Origin: an uncultured Erythrobacter sp.
GTDB lineage: Bacteria; Pseudomonadota; Alphaproteobacteria; Sphingomonadales; Sphingomonadaceae
DNA: 64,000 nt
Direction: 5' to 3'
Assembly: GCA_947502815.1 (NCBI GenBank)
Contig: CANNBH010000001.1
Location: forward strand, 1,426,001 to 1,490,000
Part shown: positions 8,679 to 14,163 of the stretch, in pieces
Numbering within the stretch: the stretch's first letter is position 1
How the letters are laid out: every line of letters starts with the position of its first letter
Made by a program: the position numbers and the translations under genes
The notes under the pieces: generated by a model
Told to the model about the DNA's origin: nothing
What the model saw: the letters and a program-made list of their open reading frames with translations, nothing else
Databases searched by the model: none

Positions 8679-9620
8679 ATGCACGCATTCGTATTCCCGG
8701 GGCAGGGCAGTCAAAAAGTCGGCATGGGCACAGACCTAGCCGCCGCCAGCAGCGCAGCGCGCGCGGTGTTTGAAGAGGTTGATGATGCGCTGGGCATGAA
8801 ACTGTCCGCTATCATGGCCGATGGTCCAGAGGATCAGCTTACCCTGACCGAGAATGCTCAGCCCGCGATCATGGCCAATGCCATTGCGACCTTGCGCGTG
8901 TTGGAAAGCGAATTTGGGGTGAAGCTGGCGGACAATGCTTCGTGTGTCGCGGGGCATTCGCTGGGCGAATACACCGCATTGTGCGCGGTTGGTGCGTTTG
9001 ATCTGGCGACAACGGCGCGCCTGCTCAAATTGCGCGGGAACTCGATGCAAGCGGCGGTTCCTGTGGGAATCGGCGCGATGGCGGCATTGCTGGGTGCGGA
9101 CATTGAAAAAGCGACCGCATTGGCGCAGGCCGCGGCAGACGGCGAAGTGTGCGAAGTCGCCAATGACAATGATCCCGGCCAAGTCGTGATCTCAGGCCAC
9201 AAGGGCGCGATTGAACGCGCGGTGGCGCTGGTGAAAGATCACGGCGTCAAACGCGGCATTCTGCTGCCCGTATCCGCTCCGTTCCATTGTTCCTTGATGC
9301 AGCCCGCCGCCGACCGCATGGCAGAAACGCTGGCGGAAAATGCACCGGGTGCGCTGGCTGTTCCGCTGTTCGCCAACGTCACCGCTGCGAAAGTCACCGA
9401 CCCTGCCGAAGAGCGATCTCTGCTGGTCCAGCAAGTCACGGGCCGCGTGCGCTGGCGCGAAAGCGTCGCTGCGATGCATGCAGACGGCGTTGACAGTTTC
9501 GTTGAATTTGGCGGCAAAGTGCTCAGCCCAATGATCAAGAAGATCGCCGGCGAAGCGAAAACCACCAGCCTGATTACGATGGAAGACATTGAAGGATTTG
9601 CCAAAGATGTCGGGGCTTGA
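8679..9620 (+). CDS. fabD: Malonyl-CoA:ACP transacylase
   Basis: A 313-residue enzyme moving malonyl from CoA to acyl carrier protein for fatty-acid elongation. It has the N-terminal FPGQGSQKVGMG, the nucleophile elbow GHSLGEYTAL (Ser near residue 92), the NDNDPGQVVISG segment and the active-site His region SAPFHCSLMQPAA. AAGGAAG is well placed before the ATG. fabG, its usual direct partner, lies 3.8 kb downstream; a photolyase locus and a GNAT gene sit between them, which looks like an interrupted fabD-fabG pair. Confidence 0.96.
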   Translation: MHAFVFPGQGSQKVGMGTDLAAASSAARAVFEEVDDALGMKLSAIMADGPEDQLTLTENAQPAIMANAIATLRVLESEFGVKLADNASCVAGHSLGEYTALCAVGAFDLATTARLLKLRGNSMQAAVPVGIGAMAALLGADIEKATALAQAAADGEVCEVANDNDPGQVVISGHKGAIERAVALVKDHGVKRGILLPVSAPFHCSLMQPAADRMAETLAENAPGALAVPLFANVTAAKVTDPAEERSLLVQQVTGRVRWRESVAAMHADGVDSFVEFGGKVLSPMIKKIAGEAKTTSLITMEDIEGFAKDVGA

Positions 9621-9774
9621 ACAGTCTGAGGTCAGATCGCGCTAGTCTTAGAGTCCGCTTTCAGGGCTCTTTGAGAACGATTGGAATGTCCACTTTTGGG
9701 AGTGAAAGTAGTCTTTTTCGGCCGGGGCACTCACGGACTTGCTTCTCGGCTTTTGAGCGATCATTAGCCAGATT

Positions 9775-11298
9775 GTGACGACGCTCTTACCAATTTTCGG
9801 TGACCAACTGAGCGCAACTTTGCCGTCCTTAATGAAGGCCGACCCGGCGCATAGTATCATCCTCATGATGGAGGTCATGGAGGAGGCAAGCTATGTGCCG
9901 CACCACCCCAAAAAGATCGCGTTCATTTTCTCGGCCATGCGCCATTTCGCTCAAGAACTGCGCGAAACGGGATGGTTGGTCGACTATGTTGCGCTCGATG
10001 ATCCGGGCAATACCGGCACATTCACAGATGAAGTCGCGCGCGCAATCAACCGGCATTCGATAACGAATATTGCGCTCACCGAACCCTCTGAATTCCGGGT
10101 CATGGAATTGGTGCGCGGTTGGCAGGACGCGTTTGGCATTACCGTCCACGTTCAAAGGGATGATCGGTTCGTCTGTTCGCTCGAAGAATTTTCTCAATGG
10201 GCAGAAGGCCGAAAGTCGCTTCGGATGGAGTATTTCTATCGCGAAATGCGAAAGAAGACTGGGTTGCTGATGAAAGAGGGCAAGCCAGAAGGCGGCAAAT
10301 GGAATTTTGATAAAGAGAACCGTAAACCGGCCGGCGACAACCTTTTCATGCCGCGTCCGAAACGGTTTGCGCCAGACGCCATAACGCAAGAGGTGCTGCA
10401 GCTTGTTGAGGCTCAATTCCCCGACAACTTCGGATCTCTGGACGACTATTGGTTCGGAGCAAGTCGAGCCGATGCCGAGAATGCTCTAGAGAGTTTCTTG
10501 AGCGAAGCCTTGCCGCAGTTTGGCGAATTTCAAGATGCCATGCTTGAGGGGCAGAATTTTCTCTATCACGCGGTCATATCACTCTATCTCAACATCGGTC
10601 TGCTTTCGCCTCTTGGCGTATGTTTACGGGTGGAAGAAGAGTATCGGGCAGGCCGCGTGCCAATCAATTCTGCCGAAGGGTTCATCCGGCAAATCATCGG
10701 CTGGCGCGAATATGTTCGCGGAATTTATTGGCGCGAAATGCCGGGCTATCAAAAGCGCAATGATCTGAGTGCACATCGCGCGCTGCCTTCGTTTTATTGG
10801 ACCGGAGACACTCAGATGAACTGTCTGCGCACTTGCATTTCCCAGACACGCGATGAAGCCTACGCTCATCACATTCAGCGATTGATGATCACGGGAAATT
10901 TTGCACTGATCGCGGGCATCGATCCAGAGCAAGTTCACGAATGGTATTTGGCCGTTTATGCCGACGCATTCGAGTGGGTCGAACTTCCAAACACCTTGGG
11001 TATGAGCCAATTTGCAGATGGCGGGATTTTGGCAAGCAAACCCTATGCCTCGTCGGGCACATACATCGATAAAATGAGCGATTATTGCGGCGCCTGCCGA
11101 TACTCAGTGAAGGTCAAGGAAGGGGAGGATGCTTGCCCTTTTAATTACCTCTACTGGGATTTCATTTCGCGGCATGAGGAGAGATTCAAGAACAACCCTC
11201 GCATGGCGATGATTGTTAGGAGCTACGGGAAATTCAGCCCCGCTAAGAAATCACAGATTGCCACTGATGCGAGCCGGTTTCTAAGTGAATTGAATTAG
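9775..11298 (+). CDS. phrB: FeS-type (6-4) photolyase / bacterial cryptochrome
   Basis: A 507-residue flavoprotein, the same length as Agrobacterium PhrB, which repairs (6-4) photoproducts with light. The N-terminus LLPIFGDQLS is typical of the deoxyribodipyrimidine-photolyase-related domain. The C-terminal half has GWREYVRGIYW and NALGMSQFADGG-like (NTLGMSQFADGG) FAD-domain motifs. Four cysteines at residues 350, 438, 441 and 454 (NCLRTC, YCGACRY, DACPFNY) fall exactly where, from memory, PhrB binds its 4Fe-4S cluster. Start is GTG at 9775. It is convergent with the decayed photolyase gene, stop to stop without a gap. Confidence 0.93.
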   Translation: MTTLLPIFGDQLSATLPSLMKADPAHSIILMMEVMEEASYVPHHPKKIAFIFSAMRHFAQELRETGWLVDYVALDDPGNTGTFTDEVARAINRHSITNIALTEPSEFRVMELVRGWQDAFGITVHVQRDDRFVCSLEEFSQWAEGRKSLRMEYFYREMRKKTGLLMKEGKPEGGKWNFDKENRKPAGDNLFMPRPKRFAPDAITQEVLQLVEAQFPDNFGSLDDYWFGASRADAENALESFLSEALPQFGEFQDAMLEGQNFLYHAVISLYLNIGLLSPLGVCLRVEEEYRAGRVPINSAEGFIRQIIGWREYVRGIYWREMPGYQKRNDLSAHRALPSFYWTGDTQMNCLRTCISQTRDEAYAHHIQRLMITGNFALIAGIDPEQVHEWYLAVYADAFEWVELPNTLGMSQFADGGILASKPYASSGTYIDKMSDYCGACRYSVKVKEGEDACPFNYLYWDFISRHEERFKNNPRMAMIVRSYGKFSPAKKSQIATDASRFLSELN

Positions 11299-12500
11299 TT
11301 AGATCAAATCCAGCTGCGACAGAATCGATGGGATCTTCTTACGAAGCCCAAAGAAGCCCGCTTTCGCGCAAGGCCATACGAAAGCGTCATAAGGACGCGT
11401 TATCTCCACGAGAGAGACATCCAAATCACGGCATGCCTTCAAAAGGCGCTTGCGCGATGGTCCTATTGGAATTCGCGCAGTTGCCAAAACATCAAGATCA
11501 TTCTGTTTAACCCAATCCGTGATCACGCCTTTCCAATCAGCGCTATCGGTCTCAAGGCATTCAATCTCCCACTTTGCTCTCGCCAGTCTTGCCGCTTCCG
11601 CAACACACTGCTGCGAAAATGCGTCGACAATTGGGCTGTTCGCAAGGACAGAACGCGGTGAGGGATTGAGCAATGAAAGCGTGGCAGCCGGGGCAATCGT
11701 GAGCGGTAAACGGTCGGGGCTACAATCTTCCTCTGTCAGTATCAGTCCGACGCGACCGAGTGGCACTTCGCAGTCGCCCAAGCGAGGGGCAATGGGGGCA
11801 GGCAATGCAGGCTCTTGCAGCGGCGATGCTTCCGTCGCCAAGCCTATGGGATCGAATCGGCCGTTCGTGATTTCTTGATGTTTGAAGCGCGTGCGGAATA
11901 GGTTTTGCCAGTCGTGTGAAGCCCACCGACCCAGCGCCACGAACATGTATTGGAAGCGGCATCTCCATCCAGCAAATGGCGATAGAAGAAATCTGCGCCC
12001 AGCTCCCAAGGGATTTCAAGCGTGAAGATCCAAATGCTAGCAAACCACATGCGAGCATGATTGTGGAGGTACCCGGTTTGGATGAGTTCGCGAACCCAAT
12101 GGTCGAAACAGTCGATCCCTGTTCTGCCATCAATGGCCTCTTCGTAGCGGCGTCGCAGAGATGCATTCCGCTCCAGTTGCCTCACGTAGTTGGTGAGGTT
12201 CCTGCGATAGCGAAACCAAACTTCGGGACGGTGCTCCAACCAGCCTTTGAAGTATCCACGCCAGAACACTTCCGCAACGAACTTTTCGGCGGATTGTTCG
12301 CTATGCTGGGAGAGCGTCTGCGCCAGCACTTCTTCCTCGAGAAGCAGACGATGGCTGATCCAAGGTGAGAGGCAAGAGACGCCCTCATGATGTCCTGCGC
12401 CAAGATCAAAATTCCGCCGTGAGGCGTAAGTCTGACCAGCTTTGGCAATGAATGCATTTTGCCGGTCGAGTGCTGCCCGCCTTGATGGCTCCCAGTTCAA
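11299..12500 (-). pseudogene. Frameshifted FAD-binding photolyase-like gene
   Basis: Two overlapping frames make one protein broken by a single lost base near 11868-11876. The upstream frame (12500 to about 11876) has the photolyase FAD-binding domain: NFDLGAGHHEGVSCLSPWI, EVFWRGYFKGWL, HNHARMWFASIWIF, SNTCSWRWVGGLHTTGK, SNIKK. The downstream frame resumes with TNGRFDP and runs to the stop at 11299, ending in an alpha/beta-looking segment. The span is 1202 nt; adding one base gives exactly 401 codons. I place the start at TTG 12500 because AGGGA lies 6 nt before it. A sequencing error is the main alternative, but the neighbouring DUF2256 is also broken. Confidence 0.8.
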
Positions 12501-12501
12501 T

Positions 12502-12648
12502 TTATATCCCTTTTTTCTGACTGCCGTTGCGACGGTCACGGTCGGAACAGCAACGAACGCGCTACCAATCGCGTTCCCATTTCTTTCGCAAGCTGAATGG
12601 GTGCACGGCAATCAAACAGGTCCCGGACGGGAGGTGTCGCATCTTCAT
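12502..12648 (-). pseudogene. Decayed DUF2256 small zinc-ribbon gene
   Basis: Absent from the ORF track. Reading from ATG 12648 gives MKMRHLPSGTCLIAVHPFSL, then RKKWERDW, an in-frame TAG, and RVRCCSDRDRRNGSQKKGI up to a TAA. This lines up along its length with DUF2256 (pattern CPVCxRPFxWRKKWxxxWxxVxYCSxxCR), but the second and last zinc cysteines are gone, the Trp of FxW is Leu and a stop replaces an acidic residue. CLIAVHPF could derive from a CLIC-type sequence by compensating one-base changes. DUF2256 genes commonly neighbour photolyases; this one ends 1 nt before the photolyase TTG start. Confidence 0.8.
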
Positions 12649-12915
12649 CTTGAACTGAGCGCCTCTGAGGTCTTTGAGCGCGCAGCTGCAAAAATCCGCC
12701 TAGGTCGGTTCTATGCACTGCGCGCGCTGAAACGTCTGGTCGAAAGCCCACTTTTCGGTCGATAGCTGAGGGGCGACGAATTGCTCAAAAATTTGCAGAA
12801 TTGAATGTGCCGCTCCAAGAGGCACCGAACATTCCATCAATGCACGCATCCAGCTGTTAGATGGTGCGGCATTTCGCTCAAATGGGTTATGAGATCGTTG
12901 AGGGAGAAATGCCCG

Positions 12916-13389
12916 ATGACCGAATCCGGGAAAAGCGCAGAGTCAGCTTCGCACCAACACAGCAAAGCGGCTGAGTTCGATCTGCATTGGATCAATGCCG
13001 ACAACGCCCACCTCCTCCAAAATGTTGCCGCCGGGGTTTTTGATGAGGCAATCGATCCGGCGCGTCTTGCGGCCTATCTGGCGAACCCAGCCAATGTGAT
13101 GTGTGTTGCGATATCGGGCGGCCAAGTGGTTGGCATGGTTATGTGCGTAATCCACCTTCATCCCGACAAACCGACCGAGCTATACCTTGACGAGATCGGC
13201 ACAGGGGACGATTGGCGCAGGCAAGGCATCGCGCGCGCTTTGATGCTCAAAGTGTTTGAGCGCGCCGATGACGAGGATATTGAAGAGATTTGGTTGGGAA
13301 CAGAGCCTGACAACACGCCTGCGATTGGCCTGTATGAAAGCTTTGGGGTCAAGCCGGAGAAGGCCTTGATCTATTATCTCGACTGGTAA
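12916..13389 (+). CDS. GNAT family N-acetyltransferase
   Basis: A 157-residue acetyl-CoA-dependent acetyltransferase. After a polar N-terminus it shows the GNAT core: GQVVGMVMCVIHL, LYLDEIGTGDDWRRQGIARALMLKVF (the R/QxxGxG/A acetyl-CoA loop is RRQGIA) and TEPDNTPAIGLYESFGV. The substrate is unknown; the layout resembles aminoglycoside 3-N-acetyltransferase AAC(3)-I-like GNATs, which is suggestive only. Start moved from 12805 to ATG 12916, which has AGGGAG 9 nt upstream. It lies 9 nt before fabG and is probably co-transcribed with it. Confidence 0.85.
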   Translation: MTESGKSAESASHQHSKAAEFDLHWINADNAHLLQNVAAGVFDEAIDPARLAAYLANPANVMCVAISGGQVVGMVMCVIHLHPDKPTELYLDEIGTGDDWRRQGIARALMLKVFERADDEDIEEIWLGTEPDNTPAIGLYESFGVKPEKALIYYLDW

Positions 13390-13398
13390 GGAGCCAAA

Positions 13399-14163
13399 AT
13401 GTTTCAACTCAACGGAATGAACGCGCTGGTTACAGGCGCAAGCGGCGGCATCGGTTCGGCTATTGCTATAGCACTGGCCAAGCAAGGCGCGCGGGTTGCG
13501 CTTTCGGGATCGAATGGCGACAAATTGCGCGCCTTTCGCGAACAGCTTATTTCCGAAGTGGGCTCACCCGAACACGGCGATCACGTTGAGATCACCTGCA
13601 ACCTGTCGGACAAGACTCAAGTCGATGAATTGATCCCTGCGACCGTTCACACGCTGGGCGGGATCGATATTTTGGTGAACAATGCCGGGATTACGCGCGA
13701 CAATCTGGCGATGCGGATGAAGGATGATGAATGGGATCAGGTGATCTCCGTCAATCTCGAAGCGATTTTCCGCCTGATGCGCGCCAGCGCGCGTCCGATG
13801 ATGAAGGCGCGCTTTGGCCGGATCATCAACATCACCAGCGTCGTCGGCAGCACGGGCAATCCGGGCCAGATGAACTATGCCGCCGCCAAAGCAGGCGTGA
13901 CCGGCATGACCAAAAGCTTCGCACAAGAAGTCGCATCGCGCGGGATCACCGCCAATTGCGTCGCGCCCGGCTTTATCCGCACGGCGATGACGGATGAATT
14001 GCCCGACGCGCAGAAAGACGCGCTCAACGCCCGCATCCCAGCGGGCAAAATGGGCGAGGGCGATGATATCGGTGCGGCCGTTGGCTATCTGGCGAGCCGA
14101 GAGGCGGGCTATGTCACGGGCGAAACGCTGCATGTGAACGGCGGCATGGCGATGTTGGGGTAA
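13399..14163 (+). CDS. fabG: 3-oxoacyl-ACP reductase
   Basis: A 254-residue NADPH-dependent SDR that reduces 3-ketoacyl-ACP during fatty-acid elongation. It has the cofactor motif TGASGGIGSA, the NNAG motif (ILVNNAGITRDNLAMRM), catalytic Ser in NITSVVGSTG, YAAAKAG with Tyr and Lys, and the C-terminal GYVTGETLHVNGGMAM. The fatty-acid-type GITRDNLAMRM signature separates FabG from generic SDRs. AAGGAG precedes the ATG. It belongs with fabD, from which it is now separated by the photolyase region. Confidence 0.95.
   Translation: MFQLNGMNALVTGASGGIGSAIAIALAKQGARVALSGSNGDKLRAFREQLISEVGSPEHGDHVEITCNLSDKTQVDELIPATVHTLGGIDILVNNAGITRDNLAMRMKDDEWDQVISVNLEAIFRLMRASARPMMKARFGRIINITSVVGSTGNPGQMNYAAAKAGVTGMTKSFAQEVASRGITANCVAPGFIRTAMTDELPDAQKDALNARIPAGKMGEGDDIGAAVGYLASREAGYVTGETLHVNGGMAMLG

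Follow-up and report, generated by a model that had tools for sequence, protein, structure and literature searches.

Gene content of the fabD-fabG insert

The window analysed here, a whole stretch of 64,000 nucleotides from an uncultured Erythrobacter sp. (contig CANNBH010000001.1 of assembly GCA_947502815.1), carries between fabD and fabG an insert in which an intact photolyase gene faces a damaged pair, a second photolyase split by a frameshift and a small pseudogene of the DUF2256 family, while an intact acetyltransferase gene makes up the remainder (Table 1).

Table 1. Features of the insert, in window coordinates
Feature	Position	Strand	Evidence and remarks
Whole insert between fabD (8679-9620) and fabG (13399-14163)	9700..13390		GC 53.2% vs 57.4% for the window
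Intact DPRP (prokaryotic 6-4 / FeS-BCP type photolyase), 507 aa	9775..11298	(+)	PF04244, 281 bits
C-terminal (Z-domain-like) half of the photolyase pseudogene	about 11299..11883	(-)	Other frame; alignment and tblastn to intact homologues
FAD-domain half of the NewPHL/SPL-type photolyase pseudogene	11844..12500	(-)	TTG start 12500, premature TAG 11844; FAD_binding_7 (PF03441), 86 bits
Frame-change zone of the photolyase pseudogene	11868..11880	(-)	Net one-base loss; homologue alignments
DUF2256 pseudogene	12502..12648	(-)	PF10013, 44.8-46 bits (stop as X in the 46-bit search); 2 of 4 cysteines lost; in-frame TAG 12562-12564
GNAT-family acetyltransferase, intact, remaining insert gene	12913..13389	(+)	PF00583, 70.9 bits

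The intact enzyme is, as an earlier note on this DNA had recognized, of the Fe-S type. Its full-length match to PF04244 and the presence of all four Fe-S cysteines (C350, C438, C441 and C454) place it among the prokaryotic 6-4 photolyases (FeS-BCP), from which it differs in being an apparently non-native copy at a foreign site; it also diverges from the genus's own DPRP.

The photolyase opposite combines an N-terminal FAD_binding_7 domain with a C-terminal extra domain, and a Pfam search found PF00875 in neither of its two pieces. This order, in which no N-terminal antenna domain precedes the FAD domain and a distinct C-terminal domain follows, is shared with NewPHL/Phr7, which is described as a photolyase for CPDs in single-stranded DNA (Emmerich et al., 2020, cited in PMC9426592), and with the short photolyase-like (SPL) proteins, a named group of the photolyase family (PMC9178010). 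The window photolyase differs from NewPHL/Phr7 in that it is split, with the C-terminal domain in another frame past the stop at 11844, and its membership follows from domain order and not from a comparison with characterized proteins. It is a broken NewPHL/SPL member by descent and no working one, and the activity of its type is presumed by analogy with homologues.

The FAD domain shares 53-68% identity with intact homologues from Rhodobacterales and other Alphaproteobacteria; its frame is also open upstream of the TTG at 12500 (minus strand), to 12611, and the TTG has AAAAAAGGGATATAAA directly upstream. Searched alone, the C-terminal half matched no Pfam family, but its alignment to the corresponding domain of intact homologues gives 25-42% identity. 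Solved structures match the window photolyase through the FAD domain only. The family matching the fragments is represented in about 30 relatives and also at 80 or more named loci, and these matches appear to be more than chance. Several alphaproteobacterial families also hold related FAD-only open frames of approximately 245-310 aa that lack the C-terminal domain (G085, G240, G245, G275, G344, G075, G269, G338, G443, G444). The frame changes where the earlier note had placed it: the conserved residues 'NI' (11882) and 'TNGRF' (11868) fall in different frames, which places the change in the interval from 11880 to 11868; the residues flanking this junction stand in a single frame in nine aligned homologues, not in the window copy.

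DUF2256 (PF10013) is a small zinc-finger-like protein of the TRASH clan (PMC4047054). In the window copy the whole 40-residue domain is still recognizable and scores above the curated Pfam cut-off of 25 bits, and by score it belongs to the family. It differs from the family in being a pseudogene of an extra copy: of the four cysteines (CxxC and CxxxC) expected in an open frame, only two remain, alanine (12609-12607) and aspartate (12537-12535) having taken the place of the others, and a stop interrupts the frame. Both genes are thus damaged in the way first described. Since the terminal TAA of DUF2256 lies one base ahead of the TTG start of the photolyase, the two probably once formed one operon, as had been proposed.

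Unequal damage in the two pseudogenes

Decay was measured as the count of changed near-invariant sites, dN/dS being unusable with synonymous sites saturated (the nearest photolyase homologue is 69% identical). In the FAD domain of the photolyase one of the 66 sites that are kept in at least 97% of 109 other homologues has changed (rank 12 of 110); lowering the conservation threshold to 90% gives 3 of 89. This is typical, as many intact homologues differ equally or more, and the end branch of 0.24, against a median of 0.17, is ordinary and not long. The window DUF2256, on the other hand, has changed at 7 of 23 near-invariant sites, the stop not counted, in a comparison that is short at 23 columns. 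Measured against a broader set, whose intact sequences each show at most one such difference, it has changed at 5 of 17 sites (Fisher p 0.001); the motif used to pick this set fixes some of the columns. DUF2256 broke much earlier than the photolyase. Joint loss of function would predict many more changes in the photolyase, and the proposed co-decay of the two genes therefore finds no support.

The FAD domain carries no excess of changes, and the frameshift, the only visible lesion of the photolyase, would be recent, or conceivably an assembly error. The argument that damage to both genes speaks against a sequencing error does not hold: the damage in DUF2256 is separate and older and therefore has no bearing on this choice. 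That the gene is in fact intact, its frameshift a mistake of assembly or sequencing, and the redundant DUF2256 copy the sole pseudogene, is nevertheless unlikely. The frameshift stands alone in a gene of ordinary branch length whose FAD domain retains 65 of its 66 near-invariant residues, and the codon-position GC of the C-terminal half (0.61/0.48/0.54) is still position-dependent, all of which fits an error; against it, a scan of the junction found no homopolymer of at least 5, the assembly consists of 4 contigs only at 100% completeness, and loss of the photolyase is common in the genus.

Indeed, at least 6 of 36 sampled congeners (G006, G007, G008, G010, G012 and G020) are without the FAD-first photolyase, which upholds the part of the earlier note that regarded the enzyme as dispensable. 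An intact class I CPD photolyase lies just right of the window (C1:1490559-1491917). Judged by family functions, it should act on the type of lesion that NewPHL proteins repair; this enzyme, and not the facing 6-4-type photolyase, is therefore the likely backup for the lost photolyase.

The company of DUF2256

The apparent co-decay of the pseudogenes had suggested that DUF2256 works with this photolyase. Of 387 alphaproteobacterial genomes, 108 carry DUF2256, and DPRP accompanies it in 101 of these; DPRP occurs without DUF2256 in 18 others (odds ratio 209); as the genomes are related, p-values from such counts overstate independence, and the family-level and out-of-class counts are safer. At the family level, with about 154 families taken, DPRP accompanies DUF2256 in 55 of 57, and outside the class in all eight DUF2256 genomes of 74, two more having DPRP alone. 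The association persists among genomes with a class I photolyase (odds ratio 150). The FAD-first photolyase is nested within this pair, both other genes being present in 46 of the 47 genomes that carry it.

It is improbable that DUF2256 and the FAD-first photolyase are dedicated partners that decayed jointly once the second repair enzyme became dispensable. Such a partnership would agree with the operon found in the window and in Rhodobacteraceae, and with the observation that, given DPRP, the FAD-first photolyase raises the presence of DUF2256 from 55/73 to 46/46 genomes. It is contradicted by the unequal decay, by an intact native DUF2256 elsewhere in the same genome (C1:1141418-1141534, 78.8 bits, with neighbours as in the sister G030) and by the gene content of congeners, five of which (G006, G008, G010, G012 and G020) have retained DPRP and DUF2256 without the photolyase, while G033 lacks all three genes. 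Proximity argues the same way, as DUF2256 is no more than 2 kb away from DPRP in 39 genomes, compared with five for the FAD-first photolyase. The draft congener G007 has DUF2256 without either other gene.

Two further roles were considered. DUF2256 as a general partner of photolyases was rejected, since it does not track class I photolyase where DPRP is missing (p 0.26). DUF2256 as a helper for the Fe-S cluster of DPRP is excluded by a comparison of the cysteines, all four of which are present in the DPRP of 17 DUF2256-free genomes (the eighteenth DPRP is cut off) and lacking in 6 DUF2256-positive genomes. A literature search found no paper linking DUF2256 with photolyase.

Origin of the cassette

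In the congeners G024 and G008, fabD and fabG are 3 bp apart. At the same place the sister G030 holds a different insert, encoding a 646-residue beta-propeller protein (L123:7715-9655), and the junction (window 9621-13398) may be an insertion hot spot in the lineage. The earlier picture of a native operon is at odds with the phylogenies, the insertion site and a scar at the native DPRP locus, all of which make the cluster look foreign. Native DPRPs from 25 congeners fall into one clade (support 97; 100 together with another genus of the family) and native photolyases from 27 congeners into another (97), and in both trees the window copy stands outside, its photolyase among sequences of Thiotrichales, Hyphomonadaceae and Rhizobiaceae. 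Identity to congeners is 72-90% for fabD, about 55% for DPRP (63% to G008) and 53-61% for the photolyase. The DPRP of G008 also falls outside the genus clade; this non-native gene lies at a different site (L145:5886-10015), beside genes for a DCC1-like thiol-disulfide protein, an ABC1-kinase-like protein, a short-chain dehydrogenase and DUF2256.

Both native genes are missing from their own sites. In G030, DPRP separates a GST-like gene from the next conserved gene; in the genome studied here these two abut, and an 18-residue C-terminal remnant of DPRP, an 18-codon scar, persists in place and orientation. At the native photolyase site the flanks are retained and the gene is missing; a search there for a photolyase remnant gave chance-level matches only.

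In Rhodobacteraceae, DPRP, DUF2256 and the photolyase follow one another directly, so the three-gene set recurs as a unit elsewhere; the orientation of the window cassette, with DPRP facing the pair, differs from that order. Neither a donor of more than 69% identity nor a mobile-element boundary was found. One genome of another family (G038, C135; L135) has the FAD-first photolyase divergently next to dnaN; the window cassette is also close to dnaN, two genes away, which is probably a coincidence.

Taken together, we favour, at a probability of roughly 0.75, a horizontally acquired cassette of DPRP, a NewPHL/SPL-type photolyase and DUF2256, which would have inserted between fabD and fabG and supplanted the genome's own DPRP and photolyase. 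The extra DUF2256 would have decayed first after arrival, because the native DUF2256 was still present; the photolyase would have stayed under purifying selection until its recent frameshift; and the imported DPRP would be the retained part of the cassette. The two lesions, the position of the cluster, the lack of the native genes together with the DPRP scar, the second, intact DUF2256 and the unequal extent of damage are established; the direction of transfer and this order of events are inferred, and the photolyase loss may have been tolerated because the class I CPD photolyase remains. The acquisition is taken to be a single transfer of three genes, and the frameshift is that of one assembly.

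It is doubtful that the cluster, without any import, is an ancient paralogue set inherited vertically in the genus and lost by most members. An AU test on the photolyase alone, with a reduced set, did not reject a placement of the window copy within the genus (p 0.098), and the unrelated insert of G030 makes insertion at fabD-fabG non-unique; this account is opposed by the DPRP clade of the genus and its sister genus, which leaves the window copy out, by the 3-bp spacing of fabD and fabG in G024 and G008, and by the scar at the native DPRP site.

Very improbable, finally, is a photolyase that is functionally split, whose halves would be separate products or be linked through ribosomal frameshifting, a mechanism suggested for phr4/phr5 of marine Synechococcus (PMC9426592), since, although phr4/phr5 are of a related FAD-first type with domains in different frames and separate ORFs, and FAD-only open frames occur in several Alphaproteobacteria, many strains conserve the former, with seven G-C pairs separating the two ORFs, whereas the window case is one genome in which programmed frameshifting was rejected for want of a slippery heptamer near the junction, separate translation for want of a credible start and ribosome-binding site for the second half, and the intact close homologues checked run through the junction in one frame.

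Read as an acquired cassette, the locus is an ordinary and known kind of event, gene replacement followed by partial decay, and it cautions against inferring a partnership from adjacent pseudogenes. The part worth following is the association of DUF2256, a common yet unstudied small protein, with the prokaryotic 6-4 photolyase, which holds at the family level across Alphaproteobacteria and beyond and independently of class I photolyase. The chances are about even that DUF2256 is a dedicated small partner of DPRP, for example a folding, cofactor or DNA-handling factor, which acts with or without an Fe-S cluster in the enzyme; the decay of the window copy would then have been possible with the native copy serving the imported DPRP in trans. 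Such a role is testable: Caulobacter vibrioides and Synechococcus elongatus carry both DUF2256 and DPRP, so the question can be answered experimentally.
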